Shown here: piece after piece, positions 1,875-43,987 of the stretch
Position numbering within the stretch: position 1 is the stretch's first letter
How the letters are laid out: each line of letters begins with the position of its first letter
Virus record (IMG/VR): IMGVR_UViG_3300032240_000148
Location: 1 to 46,055 of that record
DNA length: 46,055 nt
Direction: 5' to 3' (one strand)
DNA from: a virus
Notes under the pieces: generated by a model
The model's database searches: none
What the model saw: the letters and a program-made list of their open reading frames with translations, nothing else
What the model was told of the DNA's origin: nothing
Made by a program: the position numbers and the translations under genes

Positions 1875-2137
1875 TATACGTTATAGTAAGGTAGTTTATA
1901 AACAGTGCCATTAATAGTTATATTAACATAACCCGCTGGGTTAGCAGGTAAAGCTTGTCCATTACCTGTATTAGATGAGTTACTAACAGTGTTACTTACA
2001 GGACTAGTTGTAGTCTGTATATTTGTAACAGAAGTGCTAACAGTATTAACAGTATTAAATATGTTAAAGAACCAGTCACGCCATTCGTGTACATCTCCAA
2101 CTGGTAGGTTGGGTATTGGTGGTAAGATATTAGCCAT
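1874..2137 (-). CDS. Hypothetical protein with Ser/Thr/Asn-rich linker
   Basis: 87 residues. The N-terminus is Pro-rich with an aromatic WRDWFFNIFN stretch, the middle is a low-complexity Thr/Ser/Asn region, and the end reads GYVNITINGTVYKLPYYNV. Such a beta-type tail (GY-NI-ING-T-K-PYY) recurs in small podovirus virion-region proteins, from memory. It shares one-base start/stop overlaps with both neighbours, so it is translated as part of the operon. Function is unknown; a minor virion protein is possible. Confidence 0.7.
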   Translation of the reverse strand: MANILPPIPNLPVGDVHEWRDWFFNIFNTVNTVSTSVTNIQTTTSPVSNTVSNSSNTGNGQALPANPAGYVNITINGTVYKLPYYNV

Positions 2138-3450
2138 TATTCGTATTTAAACTCCTTACAATAACCTAGCTTTTGAAGCTTAGGTAGTTCATCTTCAAGT
2201 CTCTCGCCTATGTCGTCACGTACAATCATTGCACTAGGTACTTCAATCTTTTTAACTATTTCCATAGACTTCTTACATGCCTCTTTAACAGTAGATCCTG
2301 TACCAGAAGTTACTAAGATGTAGTCGCCCGCAGATACCATCATCTCTTCTTCTTTAAATTTGCCATCTTCAAATACAGGACCTTTGCCCATCATAACTTC
2401 ACAGAAGTGAACGTCATCACCACACTTTTCTAAACCATAGATAGGGAACCCTGCTGGGTCTCTACCTGTAGACTTAGTAAATGGAAAGTCAGGTATAGCT
2501 ATAACATGACCAGCAGCTATGTCTTTAGACGCTTTAAGAGTGTCTTTACCTTCTAATAGATCACACATCCAACTTAATGAGTCACCTTTATGTAGTGCTG
2601 ATTGGATGTTAAATAGTGGCCAGCCTGGACGTGTAGTCCATTCTAAGGGTCTTGGAGAACCTTTCTCATCAATAATGAATGCAAGGTCTACATAACCAAT
2701 GTAGTTTTGGAATCGTAAGTATTCTTCTAGTTTACCTAGTGTCTCATCAAATAGTGTAGAGTTTTCTGTATACTTTAATACAGTACCCATCTCACCAGTG
2801 TTAACACCAAAGTTACTAGGCATTAGTTTTTTAAACTCAAAGTTCTCACAACGTAGTTTACTGAAACCATTCTTGCCCATCCAGGCACCTACTGCAACTT
2901 CTATACCAGGTACAAACTCTTGCATGATAAATGGCATCTTAGTTTTACCTTTAGATTTCCATCTCTCTAGCATATAGAGCATATCAGCAGGAGATTTAGA
3001 TACATAGCTCAAAGCTTTGTCTGCATCACCAGAAGGTTTAGATACATAACGTTTAGGATTAGCCTTTAAATAAGCTATAGCATCATTGTAGTTAGTAAAC
3101 TCTTGACCTTCAATAATGTCTAGACCTGCTTTCTTAAGTACATCTTGACCCTCACCTCTACGAAGTTCTAGGTAAGATGTATCAAGACTTGCACCAATAA
3201 TAGGGAATCCTTTTTGATGATACTTCTCTAAGAATTGCATTTGATATGCATTATCAGAAAGTATAATAACATCAGCCCATTTCATAAAGGCTTCCCAATT
3301 CAATACACGAGTAACAATACCTTTACCAATAATAGATTGTTCACCTGTTAAAGACTTCTTTTGCCATTGTTTAACTTCATGACCTTCTAGCATTAAACGA
3401 CAAGCAAAGTCCGTAAAGGCTCCTGCCGGATCTAATAGTAGGACTTTCAT
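2137..3450 (-). CDS. ATP-grasp enzyme related to PurD (phosphoribosylamine-glycine ligase)
   Basis: 437 residues, close to the length of bacterial PurD. It has a nucleotide-binding-like N-terminus (MKVLLLDPAGAFTDFA) and the ATP-grasp lysine at K138 (YVSKPSG). It also has PGIEVAVGAW at 181-190 and FGVNTGEMG at 214-222, very like the PurD signature GPNTGGMG. The metal-binding strand reads LEWTTRPGWP (269-278) where PurD has E-N-R-F-G, so Glu270 and Arg274 are kept but the usual Asn is Thr272. An ATP-dependent carboxylate-amine ligase is very likely. Whether it makes glycinamide ribonucleotide or another amide is open. It sits among late virion genes, with no other purine-pathway genes nearby. 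Confidence 0.85.
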   Translation of the reverse strand: MKVLLLDPAGAFTDFACRLMLEGHEVKQWQKKSLTGEQSIIGKGIVTRVLNWEAFMKWADVIILSDNAYQMQFLEKYHQKGFPIIGASLDTSYLELRRGEGQDVLKKAGLDIIEGQEFTNYNDAIAYLKANPKRYVSKPSGDADKALSYVSKSPADMLYMLERWKSKGKTKMPFIMQEFVPGIEVAVGAWMGKNGFSKLRCENFEFKKLMPSNFGVNTGEMGTVLKYTENSTLFDETLGKLEEYLRFQNYIGYVDLAFIIDEKGSPRPLEWTTRPGWPLFNIQSALHKGDSLSWMCDLLEGKDTLKASKDIAAGHVIAIPDFPFTKSTGRDPAGFPIYGLEKCGDDVHFCEVMMGKGPVFEDGKFKEEEMMVSAGDYILVTSGTGSTVKEACKKSMEIVKKIEVPSAMIVRDDIGERLEDELPKLQKLGYCKEFKYE

Positions 3451-31551: not shown

Positions 31552-31932
31552 ATGAACATAAATAATTTGGACATTCAGATTACTTGTATGGCTACTGCTA
31601 TCTATGCTGAAGCTAATACACAATCTAATGAAGCTAAGTATGGTGTAGGTTATATTATACTTAATCGCGTCAAGAATGGTAATTTTGGTAAAGACATTTG
31701 TGAAGTTGTATATAAAAATGGACAGTTTGAAGGTGTGCATGCTATAGTAACAAATAGACATTCCTATCCTACAAAATTGGACATGATTAATACAAAGTTG
31801 TTAGCGTTAAAAGTGTATACTCATAAAGTTATTAATCCAGTAGGTAAAAGTTTATACTTTCATGACGATTCAATATCGTCAATGCCTTGGGGTAAACAAA
31901 CTACTAAGATTGATAACTTAATTTTCTATTAA
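31552..31932 (+). CDS. SleB-type cell wall hydrolase
   Basis: 126 residues matching the SleB/CwlJ hydrolase family (Hydrolase_2): CMATAIYAEANTQSNEAKYG, then GYIILNRVKNGNFGKDICEV and the VVYKNGQFEG motif. The Glu of YAEA is the probable catalytic residue. It cuts peptidoglycan. No signal peptide or membrane helix is visible. Ribosome binding site AAGGA, five bases before ATG. It is odd that this lysin lies among early genes, far from the holin. Confidence 0.8.
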   Translation: MNINNLDIQITCMATAIYAEANTQSNEAKYGVGYIILNRVKNGNFGKDICEVVYKNGQFEGVHAIVTNRHSYPTKLDMINTKLLALKVYTHKVINPVGKSLYFHDDSISSMPWGKQTTKIDNLIFY

Positions 31933-32357: not shown

Positions 32358-33905
32358 ATGAAGCCATATAGTTTTATTGAGTTTAATAAACGGTTTAATA
32401 TGTTTAACTGGTCTCATCCAGATATAAGACAAACATATTGGACTAAAGAACAAAATGAATATGATTACGAACAACAAGCTACAGTTCGTAAGACATTCAC
32501 ATTGTCTACTCTTTGGTATAAAGATGAAAGAGTTTTACAGTTTTATACCAATGATGAAGGTAATGGTAGCAGACGATTAAGTATTTATAATATGTATCGT
32601 GAACTAGCATTTGGTCAAGGACTTGTTACTAGTCCAAGTTATAGAATCAATGCTAATACTTTAATTGATACTTTGTATTACAAAGTAAATGCACCAAGTT
32701 ATTACAATAAAAATGGTACACTAAAGAAAGGCTTTTGGGGTGCATTAGCTAGACGCTTACGCTCACAAGCGTTGCGTGTTAGTTGGGTAACTCAACACAT
32801 GTTACGAGAAGCTGCTAGTATAGCTTCTAATAGTACTTCAACAGTTAGTCAAGTATTTGATACTCATAATATTCCTTCTTGGTCTTATTATGTTGACTCA
32901 TTAACTAATGAATGGTTTGTTGAAGGTTCTAATAGACGAGTAAGACTTGGTAGTACTGAGTGGGTATATGTTCATCGTGCTACTGATCCTGCAACACATG
33001 GATATACATTCAATGAGCGTAATGACATCTGGCTTAGACCTGATCAGTTCTATCACAGTGGTAATGTATACAATCGTTCTGAAGTAAACATTGTAGAATG
33101 TAGACAATGTGGTACTGAAGTTGTAGATGAATTATGTGTTGATGGTGTATGTCATCAGTGTCTTGATGCATCATTTAAAATACATAACTATTCTACTCGT
33201 GTTGAGAGTATGCTTAAGTTTAAAGCTACACGCGTTAGACCTAACACAGTGTATCTAGGTTGTGAGCTTGAATACGAAACAAAGAATCGTAATCGTGCAC
33301 AGATTGGTGTTGGTAAGTTGTTACATGGTCATGCTCTTATGAAGTCTGACGGTTCTATTCGTAATGGCTTCGAGATAGTTACATGTCCTGCTACATTGGA
33401 CATTCATCTTGAAATGTTTAAGAAGTTTTATGATAACATTCCACCTGACTTAAAGGTAGAAAAGAATGTTGGTATGCATGTACATATCAGTCGCAAACCG
33501 TTGTCGCAGTTGACAATCGGTAAGTTAACTGAGTTTCTTAATCGTGATGATAACAAACAATTCATACATCATATTGCTGGTCGTATAGACAACAACTATG
33601 CTCGTATGGAAAGTGATCGTACGGTTACATTCCCATGGCGTCATCGCAATGGTGGTGGTAGATACAATGCATTAAATCTTAATAACGAGAATACAATCGA
33701 GGTTCGATTGTTTGCTACACCAATGAACTACAAAGAGTTTGCTATGCGATTACAGTTTGTTCAAGCGTTAGTTGACTATTGTAGTCCAGCTCAAAGTAGT
33801 TTAGCATTAAAGAAACAAACTCATTACGAAGCATTCATGGGTTGGTTGTCAAACAAGAAAAGAATGTTTCCTGAACTTAGTTATCATTTGAAGGAGTATG
33901 TATAA
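32358..33905 (+). CDS. Amidoligase (glutamine synthetase-like COOH-NH2 ligase)
   Basis: 515 residues. The first 245 have no known family. A five-Cys zinc ribbon (C248, C251, C260, C265, C268) follows. The C-terminal part is an amidoligase domain: LGCELEYE (Glu303, Glu305), a KSDGSI (Asp331) with GFEIVT (Glu339), GMHVHIS (His374, His376) and TIEVRLFATP (Glu448, Arg450). These acidic and His residues hold metal and ATP in the GS-like ligases. It probably joins a carboxylate to an amine. It is the first gene of a three-gene cassette with an amidotransferase and an ATP-grasp; the start of the next gene touches its stop. Ribosome binding site AAAGGA. Confidence 0.85.
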   Translation: MKPYSFIEFNKRFNMFNWSHPDIRQTYWTKEQNEYDYEQQATVRKTFTLSTLWYKDERVLQFYTNDEGNGSRRLSIYNMYRELAFGQGLVTSPSYRINANTLIDTLYYKVNAPSYYNKNGTLKKGFWGALARRLRSQALRVSWVTQHMLREAASIASNSTSTVSQVFDTHNIPSWSYYVDSLTNEWFVEGSNRRVRLGSTEWVYVHRATDPATHGYTFNERNDIWLRPDQFYHSGNVYNRSEVNIVECRQCGTEVVDELCVDGVCHQCLDASFKIHNYSTRVESMLKFKATRVRPNTVYLGCELEYETKNRNRAQIGVGKLLHGHALMKSDGSIRNGFEIVTCPATLDIHLEMFKKFYDNIPPDLKVEKNVGMHVHISRKPLSQLTIGKLTEFLNRDDNKQFIHHIAGRIDNNYARMESDRTVTFPWRHRNGGGRYNALNLNNENTIEVRLFATPMNYKEFAMRLQFVQALVDYCSPAQSSLALKKQTHYEAFMGWLSNKKRMFPELSYHLKEYV

Positions 33906-34816
33906 TGTGTATTGCAATCTATAAACCAGAAGGTAAAGTTATTCCGTATGCAACATTGAAAGAGTGTTATGATTCTAATCCAGATGGTGCAGGCTTTATG
34001 TATGCAGAAGATAAAGTGTTACATATACAAAAGGGTTTCTTTAGTTTGAAAAGCTTTTACAAAGCGTATAAAGAACACGAACATAAACAAACAGTATTAC
34101 ATTTTAGGATTAAAACTCATGGTAAAATTGATGCAACAAATTGTCATCCCTTTGCAGTTAATAATGCAATTGGCTTTGTCCATAACGGTGTTATTAGTGG
34201 GTTCGGTGATGCTGATCATAGCGACACGATTGGGTTTAACAATGGAGTATTGCAACCATTGGTTAACAAATGGGGTAACTTATCTTTATTCCAAGATCCA
34301 ATTAAAGACTTGATTGAGTCTCGTATTGGTTATAGTAAACTAATCTTCCTTGATCGTCATGGAAATCATCACATCTTCGGTGAAAAGAAAGGCCAATGGG
34401 ATGATGGCATTTGGTATTCAAATACAAGCTATCAACCTTATGTAGCACCTGTAACTACTACATGGTCTAGTGAAGCATGGCGTAAAGATTATAAATATCC
34501 AATAGCTAGTAAGACTGTTGTAGCACCTATCAAACGTAAGTATGGTGTTATGGTTGGTGACTTAGTTGAGTTGCTTGAAGAAGTTAAAGATGATTCTAGT
34601 AACAAAGTATACGAAACTGGTGAGCTATTTGAAATCGTTGCAGTCAATAAAGATTTCACTGCTGACTTAATGTATGAAACTGAGAAAGGTGATGTTGAGT
34701 TTATATACAATGTTCCTTATCACTCTCTTAACTTTGTAGATGACTTTGAAGAAGATCCTGTAGGAGCACCTGCATATCATAGCTTCTCATCACCTTCATT
34801 ATTAAAAGGATACTAA
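33905..34816 (+). CDS. Class II glutamine amidotransferase (Ntn hydrolase fold)
   Basis: 303 residues. Cys2 (MCIAIY) is the nucleophile exposed after removal of Met1. LHFRIKTHGKIDATNCHPFA (R68, H72, then H81-P82) and FVHNGVI (Asn94, Gly95) form the glutamine site, and SDT (106-108) holds an Asp like the GlmS one. It frees ammonia from glutamine, or as a relative cuts an amide. Residues about 175-303 are an extra beta-type domain (GVMVGDLVELLEEV). A strong ribosome binding site (AAGGAG) precedes the ATG, which overlaps the stop of the amidoligase by one base. It likely gives nitrogen to that enzyme. Confidence 0.87.
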   Translation: MCIAIYKPEGKVIPYATLKECYDSNPDGAGFMYAEDKVLHIQKGFFSLKSFYKAYKEHEHKQTVLHFRIKTHGKIDATNCHPFAVNNAIGFVHNGVISGFGDADHSDTIGFNNGVLQPLVNKWGNLSLFQDPIKDLIESRIGYSKLIFLDRHGNHHIFGEKKGQWDDGIWYSNTSYQPYVAPVTTTWSSEAWRKDYKYPIASKTVVAPIKRKYGVMVGDLVELLEEVKDDSSNKVYETGELFEIVAVNKDFTADLMYETEKGDVEFIYNVPYHSLNFVDDFEEDPVGAPAYHSFSSPSLLKGY

Positions 34817-34817
34817 T

Positions 34818-35570
34818 ATGTCTCTTAAACTATTTCCTTATAAACAACAAAGTCTGTCCGCCAAGAAATTGGCGAGACGACTTAGTATACTAAGAGTAAG
34901 ACATACTTACGATGCTAAGCGTCGTGATGTAATTGTTAACTGGGGTGCTTCGCAACCACCTCAGTTTAAGTCTATGCCTCATGATCTAAACAAACATGAA
35001 GCTATAGCAATAGCATGTGATAAACTTAAAACCTTTAAAACTCTTGCACTGCAAGGGTTTGAACAGTTACCTAAGTTTAGTACTAAAATAGAAGACGCTA
35101 AAGATTGGATAGACAAAGGTGAAACAATCTATTGTCGAACTAAATTAAACAGTCACAGCGGTCGTGGTATAGTTATATGCAATGATGTAAATGATTTACC
35201 TATTGCACCATTGTATACTGTCAAAGCTAATCATAAATTAGAGTATCGTGTTCATGTCTTTAAAGGAGATATATTGTATGTACAACAAAAGAAAAAGAAA
35301 CTTGGGGTTTCCTCATCCACTAGCGGTATTCGCAATCATGGTAACGGCTGGGTTTACTGCACGCCAACTGATACACCTAGTGAGCTACTACTATCATCAT
35401 GCGTTCGTGCAGTCAAATTACTTGGTCTCGATTTTGGTGCAGTTGACATTGGTCATCGTGTTCGTGATAATCGTTTCTTCGTGTTTGAAATCAATACTGC
35501 ACCAGGATTAGTTGGTACAACGCTTGACAAATATGCGAAAGCAATTTACAATTACTATAGGAGTCTATAA
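34818..35570 (+). CDS. RimK-like ATP-grasp ligase
   Basis: 250 residues of one ATP-grasp domain. TIYCRTKLNSHSGRGIVI (103-120) is the glycine-rich ATP loop, and LYTVKANHKLEYRVHVFKGD (132-151) holds a Lys, Glu142 and Arg144. VDIGHR (Asp210) and FEINTAPGL (Glu224, Asn226) bind Mg. It is closest to the RimK and peptide-ligase class, which adds an amino acid to a carboxylate via an acyl phosphate. It is one base after the amidotransferase stop. The trio makes an amide-forming pathway likely. The substrate is unknown. Confidence 0.85.
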   Translation: MSLKLFPYKQQSLSAKKLARRLSILRVRHTYDAKRRDVIVNWGASQPPQFKSMPHDLNKHEAIAIACDKLKTFKTLALQGFEQLPKFSTKIEDAKDWIDKGETIYCRTKLNSHSGRGIVICNDVNDLPIAPLYTVKANHKLEYRVHVFKGDILYVQQKKKKLGVSSSTSGIRNHGNGWVYCTPTDTPSELLLSSCVRAVKLLGLDFGAVDIGHRVRDNRFFVFEINTAPGLVGTTLDKYAKAIYNYYRSL

Positions 35571-35572
35571 TT

Positions 35573-35887
35573 ATGTTTAAAGTAGGTGATAAAGTAAGTT
35601 TTCATAGTCTTACTGAAAACTTTGATTGGGTTCATGATGTAGAAAGATATCTTGATGATGTTACTGAGTATGAGATTGTAGAAATACCATATGAAACTAA
35701 TGATATAATTAAAGTTCGTAGTAAAGATGGTTCTAACCTTATACCCGTTGACATTGATGAATATCAAATTCATACTCAAGAATCTTTAAGACAATTATTA
35801 AAATCTAATAAACATCAATACGCAGCTATTTGTAACAAGATTAGACAACTGTATCGCAAACAAGAGTTTCAATTTAAGGGAGTGTAA
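35573..35887 (+). CDS. Small SH3-like protein after the amide-ligase cassette
   Basis: 104 residues. The N-terminal half (FKVGDKVSFHSLTENFDWVH, YEIVEIPYETNDIIKVRSKD) has the alternating pattern of a small beta-barrel. The VGD-V...EIV-V start resembles the C-terminal domain of the amidotransferase. The C-terminus is a basic helix. A ribosome binding site (AGGAG) precedes the ATG two bases past the ATP-grasp stop, so it is probably the fourth gene of the cassette. Confidence 0.65.
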   Translation: MFKVGDKVSFHSLTENFDWVHDVERYLDDVTEYEIVEIPYETNDIIKVRSKDGSNLIPVDIDEYQIHTQESLRQLLKSNKHQYAAICNKIRQLYRKQEFQFKGV

Positions 35888-42489: not shown

Positions 42490-42848
42490 TGGCTGAGTGG
42501 ACCGAAGGTAGACGTAAGTCTTTTATTACTAGTGTATTAAGAAGTGGCTATCGTAGATGGCCTCCTAAGTATGAAACACTTAAAGAAGCACAAACAGGAA
42601 AGAAAATCAATGAGAAAACTAAAAGACTCGCAATGCACTACAAGTGTAAGAAATGCAAAGAAGACTTTCCTGCTACACAAATTCAAGTCGATCATATTAA
42701 ACCTGTGGTTGATAGTAAACAGGGATTTAAGACCTGGGATGTTTTCATCGACAGGCTCTATTGCGAGAAAAAGAACTTACAAGTCTTATGCAAAACATGT
42801 CACTCTGAGAAAACCTTAAAAGAAACAAAACAAAGGACTAAGAAATGA
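42489..42848 (+). CDS. HNH endonuclease
   Basis: 119 residues. Zinc ribbon CKKCKED with CKTCHS, and the catalytic core IQVDHIKPVVD, then NLQVLCKTCHSEKT, the classic HNH with zinc. It cuts DNA. In this place, between exonuclease and oxygenase, it may act as a recombination/resolving nuclease like T7 gp3, but it could also be a free-standing homing endonuclease. It is not inserted in a gene. Confidence 0.85.
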   Translation: MAEWTEGRRKSFITSVLRSGYRRWPPKYETLKEAQTGKKINEKTKRLAMHYKCKKCKEDFPATQIQVDHIKPVVDSKQGFKTWDVFIDRLYCEKKNLQVLCKTCHSEKTLKETKQRTKK

Positions 42849-43987
42849 ATACAGTAGAGTTATTTAAAGATAATGGTTATGTCCATTTAAAGGACTTTCT
42901 ACCTTTACATACTTGTGAAGAACTAACTACAGAACTTAAAAGACTAGTAGCAGAGAATAAAACAGTTAATGATCCTCAATGTCCTTTATCTGAAGCAGTA
43001 CATGGTGCAGAGGCTTTTGATAGACTACTTGAATATCTAACACCTTACTTTGAAAAAGCTAGTGGACTTAAATTATTCCCTACCTATTCCTATGCTAGGT
43101 TATATGACACTAATGGTGAGGAATTAAAACTACATCGTGATCGTCCTGCTTGTGAAATTAGTGCTACTATTACACTAGGGTTTGAAGGAGAAGTATGGCC
43201 TATCTATATGGGTGATGCTGAAGATAAGTCAGGTTCATCTGAAATTAAAATGGAAGTAGGTGATGCTGTAATGTATCGTGGTATGGATAAGTATCACTGG
43301 CGTGAACCCTATACTAAAGGTAAATGGCAAGCACAAGTGTTTGTACACTATGTAGACCAAGATGGTCCTCATGCTGAGTGGAAGTATGACAAACGTGAGT
43401 CTCTAGGTATAAGTAAAACAGAACCTATAAACCAACAATTTGATGTGGCTTATGTAATAAAGAAAGCAGTATCAGAGTCTTTTTGTAATAATCTTATTAA
43501 AGAGTATTCTAAAGATGAAGTAGAAAAAGAACAACCTTTTATAGGTGAAGGTAGAGATCCTAATGTAAACATTAATCTTGACATTAGAAATGTATTAAGA
43601 CTTCCTCTACCTCAAAACCAGGGTATAGGTGCTACTCTTACTTCAAGTGCTTTGAACATTAATCATCAGATTTGGAAGTATGATATAACACACTCTAATC
43701 AAACAGAGTTTCTTATGTATGATGTTAACGGTAAGTATGAAGCACATGTTGATACCTTCCATCAACTTAGTGATGAAACTCGTAAACTAACAGCATTAGT
43801 TTTTCTTAATGATGACTTTGAAGGTGGTAAGTTTTATATTATAAATAGCCATGAAAAGATTTATCCACAACAAGAAAAAGGTGACATACTTGTATTCCCT
43901 TCTTTTATGGTGCATGGTGTAGAGCCAGTAACAAAAGGTAAACGTTATACAGTAGTAACATGGATGGTCGGTCCATACTTTAAATAG
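42845..43987 (+). CDS. Tandem 2OG-Fe(II) oxygenase (two domains)
   Basis: 380 residues. Domain 1 (about 1-175) has LHRDRPA (His97, Asp99) and YHWREP (His151), and GDAVMYRG. Domain 2 (about 195-380) has YEAHVDTFH (His301, Asp303), GGKFYII, GDILVFPSFMVHGVEPVTKG (His357) and RYTVVTW (Arg367), a complete prolyl-hydroxylase-like set. The first domain lacks a clear C-terminal Arg for 2-oxoglutarate. It hydroxylates an unknown target, perhaps a protein, nucleotide or cell-wall component. ATG overlaps the HNH stop by four bases. Confidence 0.82.
   Translation: MNTVELFKDNGYVHLKDFLPLHTCEELTTELKRLVAENKTVNDPQCPLSEAVHGAEAFDRLLEYLTPYFEKASGLKLFPTYSYARLYDTNGEELKLHRDRPACEISATITLGFEGEVWPIYMGDAEDKSGSSEIKMEVGDAVMYRGMDKYHWREPYTKGKWQAQVFVHYVDQDGPHAEWKYDKRESLGISKTEPINQQFDVAYVIKKAVSESFCNNLIKEYSKDEVEKEQPFIGEGRDPNVNINLDIRNVLRLPLPQNQGIGATLTSSALNINHQIWKYDITHSNQTEFLMYDVNGKYEAHVDTFHQLSDETRKLTALVFLNDDFEGGKFYIINSHEKIYPQQEKGDILVFPSFMVHGVEPVTKGKRYTVVTWMVGPYFK

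Follow-up and report, generated by a model that had tools for sequence, protein, structure and literature searches.

What does a phage gain from three amide-bond-forming enzymes encoded side by side just ahead of its primase and helicase genes? The question is raised by IMG/VR virus record IMGVR_UViG_3300032240_000148, a stretch of 46,055 bases analysed whole and called the window here, whose first 100 bases are repeated at the opposite end, so that it very probably represents a whole phage genome. The phage is of the freshwater/marine type. Its cassette encodes an amidoligase, a class II glutamine amidotransferase and a RimK-like ATP-grasp ligase, all with intact active sites, in coupled genes of which the first two form a conserved pair; a small companion gene follows (Table 1). 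We read the locus, with a confidence a little short of an even chance, as an early-region ATP-dependent amide-bond cassette, with a cell-wall precursor as the favoured target, and as a reduced, hybrid variant of the published "peptidoglycan modification cassette".

Table 1. Features of the four-gene locus, in window positions.
Feature	Positions	Strand	Basis
Amidoligase, 515 aa; COOH-NH2 ligase (glutamine synthetase/YbdK-like) domain at ~290-515, fused N-terminal part	32358..33905	+	Pfam, phrog_16683, AlphaFold2 model
N-terminal ~245-residue part of the amidoligase	32358..33092	+	Separate AlphaFold2 model; no PDB fold match
Zinc-ribbon-like motif (Cys248, Cys251, Cys265, Cys268) between the N-terminal and catalytic parts	33099..33161	+	Conservation, 44 sequences
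Class II (N-terminal nucleophile, Ntn; Cys2) glutamine amidotransferase, 303 aa	33905..34816	+	GlmS-type match, invariant residues, adjacency to the amidoligase
RimK-like ATP-grasp ligase, 250 aa	34818..35570	+	phrog_2599, PDB profile matches, invariant residues
Small companion protein, 104 aa	35573..35887	+	Hidden Markov model (HMM) built from neighbours of the ATP-grasp

An earlier note on this DNA had described three adjacent, coupled genes on the plus strand with a fourth small gene behind them, and all four lie exactly where it had placed them. The open reading frames (ORFs) of the amidoligase and amidotransferase overlap by 1 base, the gap between the amidotransferase and the ATP-grasp is 1 base and that between the ATP-grasp and the companion is 2 bases; a Shine-Dalgarno-like stretch stands ahead of each of the four start codons. 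When the three enzymes are compared with their nearest relatives, nonsynonymous divergence (dN) is 0.095-0.18 and synonymous divergence (dS) 0.44-0.86, and since the changes are mostly synonymous the genes are under purifying selection. The genes directly 3' of the cassette encode a zinc-finger-like protein, a primase (Toprim) and a DnaB-type helicase.

The amidoligase matches Pfam Amidoligase_2 (PF12224) at 23.7 bits, narrowly above the cut-off of 22 (28.5 bits in a genome search whose frame included the neighbours), and phrog_16683 at 1.8e-17. An AlphaFold2 model of the whole protein, built from 44 sequences (the window's and its relatives), has a mean predicted local distance difference test score (pLDDT) of 91.3. 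In this model residues 290-515 have the glutamine synthetase/YbdK fold, aligning structurally with YbdK at Z 11.8 (root-mean-square deviation 3.7 Å, 208 residues over 296-515) and with many glutamine synthetase chains at Z 10-11.6; PafA, Dop and GmaS were also among its Foldseek matches. Four motifs are invariant in 44 of 44 amidoligases, namely GxExE (301-305; G301, E303, E305), D331-G-S, GxHxH (372-376; G372, H374, H376) and ExR (448-450; E448, R450), and R409 and N440 are invariant among the relatives as well. With the metal/ATP motifs ExE, HxH and ExR set in the modelled fold, the protein belongs to the COOH-NH2 ligase superfamily.

The zinc ribbon is similarly well kept: C251, C265 and C268 are invariant and C248 is at least 90% conserved in the 44 sequences, and the cysteines persist even at ~30% overall amidoligase identity. 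The earlier note had proposed structure prediction for the N-terminal 245 residues; modelled separately by AlphaFold2, residues 1-276 gave a confident structure (pLDDT 91.2, predicted template modelling score 0.81) for which no solved relative was found (Foldseek best E 0.36, VIA-align best Z 4.2), a result that does not in itself prove a new fold. A relationship of this part to other cassette proteins was considered and dropped, as hhalign probabilities were below 2%. The conserved "..CA" that ends the amidoligases before the stop was likewise rejected as a motif; to judge from the coordinates, it results from reading the overlapping amidotransferase start, ATG-TGC-AT, in the +1 frame.

The amidotransferase gives weak matches, under the cut-offs, to GATase_4 (0.001) and to a GlmS-type model (9.7e-8), and its profile matches GlmS at 3.4e-6. 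Residues C2, R68, T71, H93-N94-G95 and D107-T108 are invariant in 11 sequences, and the protein follows the class II pattern of a Cys after Met1, an HNG oxyanion loop and a glutamine-binding Arg/Asp. The second gene is accordingly assigned, by residue pattern, as a Cys2 class II (Ntn) amidotransferase with GlmS-like glutamine-site residues.

The ATP-grasp matches phrog_2599 ("ribosomal protein S6 glutaminyl transferase") at 1.7e-69, and its profile finds alpha-L-glutamate ligases/RimK in the PDB (7qyr, 5zct, 4iwx) as its closest solved relatives. K69, R107, E142, R144, D210, E224 and N226 are invariant among 13 related sequences. The protein shares its ATP-grasp family and catalytic residues with RimK, the ribosomal protein S6-L-glutamate ligase, yet it scores only 32.9 bits against NCBIfam rimK_fam (TIGR00768), far under the cut-off of 143.4, and would be placed by sequence as a relative of RimK outside rimK_fam. 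Homologues occur in 314 phage records, including phages of Escherichia coli and Pseudomonas aeruginosa. The three enzyme classes named in the earlier note are thus backed by residues, fold and conserved neighbourhood, and the same evidence supports its prediction that the phage would make an amide- or amino-acid-linked modification. Homologues that have lost their catalytic residues, which it had set against its own prediction, were not seen; the key residues are invariant among the relatives.

Which of these genes form the working unit was addressed with loci drawn from IMG/VR by the amidoligase alone. The amidotransferase is the next gene after the amidoligase in 74 of 74 contigs with at least 250 bases downstream, and the ATP-grasp follows in 39 of 58 loci with at least 3.8 kb downstream, although the contigs are related and these counts hence not independent. 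Pairing of amidoligase and amidotransferase extends to the distant phages Marvin, MEP401/402, ctgrD200 and Acinetobacter phage vB_AciJM_313; it fails in Microcoleus and Clostridioides phages, which carry only a distant amidoligase. An ATP-grasp of the window's family is found nowhere in the records of MEP401/402 (Methylophilales), Marvin and the other distant phages with the pair, the MEP401/402 and Marvin genomes being complete. Because the pair is constant and the ATP-grasp is not present in all loci, we regard the pair as the core and the ATP-grasp as an addition. The co-occurrence of the trio predicted earlier therefore holds firmly for two genes and in part for the third, which is dispensable in some lineages. 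In three ATP-grasp-negative loci (L085, L081, L087) the place downstream of the amidotransferase that the ATP-grasp occupies elsewhere weakly resembles a gamma-glutamyl cyclotransferase (21-24 bits).

Bacterial chromosomal homologues, sought for telling neighbours, came to just three contigs and gave little help. A Flavobacteriaceae metagenome-assembled genome (MAG) contig has all three genes, in the order amidotransferase, amidoligase, ATP-grasp, and in Virgisporangium the neighbours are proteins without known function. The third (L191, JAGWGB010000033.1), a 7.3-kb contig labelled as a Thaumarchaeota MAG, contains the phage amidoligase, the amidotransferase and two companion genes and is apparently a misbinned piece of phage DNA.

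A profile made from the small genes adjoining the ATP-grasp matches the window's companion, itself one of the seeds, at 3.3e-22 and picks up the family at 87 loci, among them several overlapping fetches of one contig; a locus has from one to several paralogues. In the amidoligase-selected set 27 of the 39 loci with an ATP-grasp have the companion, against 0 of the 19 without one, so that the companion goes with the ATP-grasp and not with the amidoligase-amidotransferase pair. It is the sort of conserved extra gene that the earlier note had thought worth seeking. Its description there as SH3-like finds a weak echo in a paralogue, which matches KOW at 0.017, below the cut-off; the window copy has no meaningful Pfam match. 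Arrays of 2-4 diverged companion genes lie between the amidotransferase and the ATP-grasp in L079:2937-4154, L071:2739-3712 and L074:7296-7875.

With RimK-type alpha-L-glutamate ligases as the nearest solved relatives of the ATP-grasp, and a companion found only beside it and in tandem copies in some phages, the enzyme might instead tag proteins. It would extend the C-terminus of a host ribosomal or translation protein, or of the companion, after the fashion of RimK with S6 or LysX with LysW, and the pair would cap or edit the tag. We consider this unlikely, as 12 of the 39 ATP-grasp loci lack a recognisable companion and the conserved companion tail is largely accounted for by the start of the next gene. 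The C-terminal RKEQGYAF had been a candidate modification tag; most of the codons, however, make up the Shine-Dalgarno sequence (AAGGAG) and ATG of the following gene, and the argument from the tag was withdrawn on that ground. The arrayed companion genes overlap in just this way, their KEQGYAF-like codons holding the ribosome-binding site and start of the next, whereas the two copies on L191 have no such overlapping start after the tail. It is more doubtful still, and in our view very unlikely, that the companions are a dedicated protein substrate or carrier (LysW- or Pup-like) of the ATP-grasp on which the pair builds or caps a peptide, which would make the locus a phage carrier-based amide-modification system.

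The earlier note had called the trio a candidate new system; the same kind of cassette is already on record. LUZ24-like phages have a COOH-NH2 ligase, an Amidoligase_2 protein, a glutamine amidotransferase, an ATP-grasp and a cyclotransferase-like gene ahead of the primase and helicase (PMC3890496), and the seven-gene version of RIO-1-like phages bears the name "peptidoglycan modification cassette", with prevention of superinfection as its hypothesised role (PMC5498523). The latter paper lists phiEco32, Salmonella 7-11, PA11, tf, MR299-2, LUZ24, PaP3 and CW02 as carriers, and the RIO-1-like podoviruses with the cassette are PSA-HP1, RIO-1, CW02, phiEco32, LUZ24 and PaP3 (PMC5498523, PMC3890496). 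We confirmed the arrangement in annotated regions of CW02, O4, ECBP2, phiM6, APT65 and vibriophages, and the slot upstream of the primase and helicase is common to Zobellviridae, phiEco32-like and M6-like phages.

The window has in common with that cassette an Amidoligase_2-fold ligase, a class II amidotransferase, a phrog_2599 ATP-grasp and the slot before the primase and helicase. Its ATP-grasp is 34-42% identical to the cassette's ATP-grasp family, and its amidoligase is homologous to, yet far from, the cassette amidoligase (hhalign 97%; different PHROG). The window amidoligase and amidotransferase fall in PHROGs 16683 and 25883, those of the larger cassettes in 7469 and 18128, and unlike the latter the window amidoligase has the fused N-terminal part and zinc ribbon. 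The window has three core genes and the larger cassettes about seven. No gamma-glutamyl cyclotransferase, second COOH-NH2 ligase or class I amidotransferase was found beside the window cassette, nor a phrog_11055-type protein of the larger cassettes, the scan covering the cassette and neighbouring genes but not all small ORFs of the window; for the second ligase and the cyclotransferase there was no Pfam or PHROG match there, and HMMs found neither in the loci of close relatives. Because these two were not found, we file the window as a variant and not as a full member of the peptidoglycan modification cassette.

The two-gene core has its own literature, the amidoligase/amidotransferase pair being discussed in a paper on Methylophilales phages (PMC10580990). 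MEP401/402 share this core with the window (amidoligase 36%, amidotransferase 46-48% identity), although they have no companion gene at the pair, and so does mycobacteriophage Marvin, whose amidoligase match begins at the zinc ribbon. The window's two proteins group with the MEP401/Marvin pair, a subfamily separate from that of the larger cassettes. Given an ATP-grasp of the cassette family and an amidoligase and amidotransferase of the MEP401/Marvin group, the window cassette appears, at the sequence level, to combine two published phage arrangements in a compact form. What is new is the architecture, in which a pair of the separate subfamily is joined to the cassette's ATP-grasp and to a companion family found only beside that ATP-grasp.

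The full cassettes hold a gamma-glutamyl cyclotransferase and a Peptidase_C26-type enzyme, and the window amidotransferase has a weak match to EgtC. Pathways with a ligase and a gamma-glutamyl hydrolase follow the logic of EgtA/EgtC and BtrJ/BtrG. By that logic the cassette might couple a gamma-glutamyl group or an amino acid to a nucleotide or metabolite, the Ntn enzyme serving as gamma-glutamyl hydrolase, and the product might perhaps confer restriction resistance. The Gordonclarkvirinae, to which ECBP2 with its larger cassette belongs, are "remarkably resistant" to restriction-modification and have no known modification genes (PMC11990801), which keeps the DNA route open; the same paper, however, points to a dCTP deaminase and a nucleotidyltransferase. 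Of the window proteins scanned, which did not include all small ORFs, none was recognised as base-hydroxylating or DNA-glycosylating, and the 2OG-Fe(II) oxygenase of the window gives matches to PKHD/2OG-FeII_Oxy_3 models. We found no restriction digests of cassette-phage DNA in the literature checked for them. A pathway of this kind, whether to a modified small molecule or to hypermodified DNA, seems to us improbable. The PKHD-type 2OG-Fe(II) oxygenase forms the C-terminal part of the protein encoded at 42845-43987 (plus strand), whose N-terminal part matches a ferrochelatase-labelled PHROG; that label is doubtful.

A simpler role in auxiliary nitrogen metabolism, in which the genes merely mobilise ammonia from glutamine or shuttle glutamate and glutamine for nucleotide synthesis in infection, would suit a phage that also encodes a ribonucleotide reductase and a PurD-like ATP-grasp. 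The amidotransferase is strictly paired, however, with a dedicated amidoligase that has its own zinc ribbon and N-terminal part, unlike a generic glutaminase, and the PurD-like gene lies far off on the opposite strand; we think this role most improbable. The PurD-like second ATP-grasp (2137-3450, minus strand) is in the late/structural module and matches TIGR00877 at 8.1e-19, far under the cut-off, and Pfam GARS_A and GARS_C. Its relatives occur in just 8 phage records, the best, 46% identical, in an uncultured phage from Manatee Spring.

For the favoured reading, that of an amide-bond cassette directed at a wall precursor, speak the glutamine synthetase/YbdK fold, the invariant motifs and glutamine-site residues, the pairing in 74 of 74 related contigs and in distant phages, the trio on the Flavobacteriaceae contig, the phrog_2599 ATP-grasp with its RimK-type profile, the slot common with published cassettes and the hypotheses already in print (PMC5498523 and, on the amidoligase and amidotransferase, PMC10580990). 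The Cys2 amidotransferase would free ammonia from glutamine, and the amidoligase would activate a carboxylate as an acyl phosphate at its glutamine-synthetase-like site and then amidate it, the pair acting through ammonia transfer as a split glutamine-dependent amide synthetase. The ATP-grasp, presumably assisted by the companion, may attach an amino acid (probably a glutamate-like one) to a carboxylate, either on the acceptor of the pair or on one related to it. Following the published hypothesis, the acceptor would most likely be a peptide-like molecule of the host, with a cytoplasmic cell-wall precursor as first candidate, and its alteration in infection would benefit the phage, for example against superinfection. 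MurT/GatD, which amidates lipid II, offers a similar logic of carboxylate-activating ligase and glutamine amidotransferase (PMC3267633), although both partners differ in fold, being Mur ligase-like and a class I-like amidotransferase, and the likeness is one of analogy only.

Several points weigh against this reading, in addition to the cassette genes missing from the window. The Cys2 Ntn enzyme could, by its sequence, be an EgtC-like gamma-glutamyl hydrolase; the cell-wall target goes back to a published guess (PMC5498523); and the literature found names no substrate or product for any phage cassette. A hint on the favourable side comes from directed evolution of the Bruynoghevirus FJK, in which missense changes arose in both the amidoligase gp22 and the adjacent GFAT-like amidotransferase gp23 (PMC11450229); they point to a part for the pair in infection without indicating the mechanism. 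No PADLOC model of known anti-phage defence matched any of the four proteins tested.

ATP-grasp homologues occur in more than 300 sequenced phages, and the literature found does not show the target of the cassette. Our comparison leaves the amidoligase and amidotransferase as the core, with the ATP-grasp and companion as optional parts, hence a small set of expressible proteins for finding the substrate and for tests of superinfection against protein tagging and DNA protection.

A SleB/Hydrolase_2 cell-wall hydrolase gene (31552-31932, on the plus strand like the cassette) ends some 430 bases before the cassette and is retained at that place in 6 of 9 close relatives. It probably encodes the endolysin, and it is possibly linked to the wall theme of the cassette.

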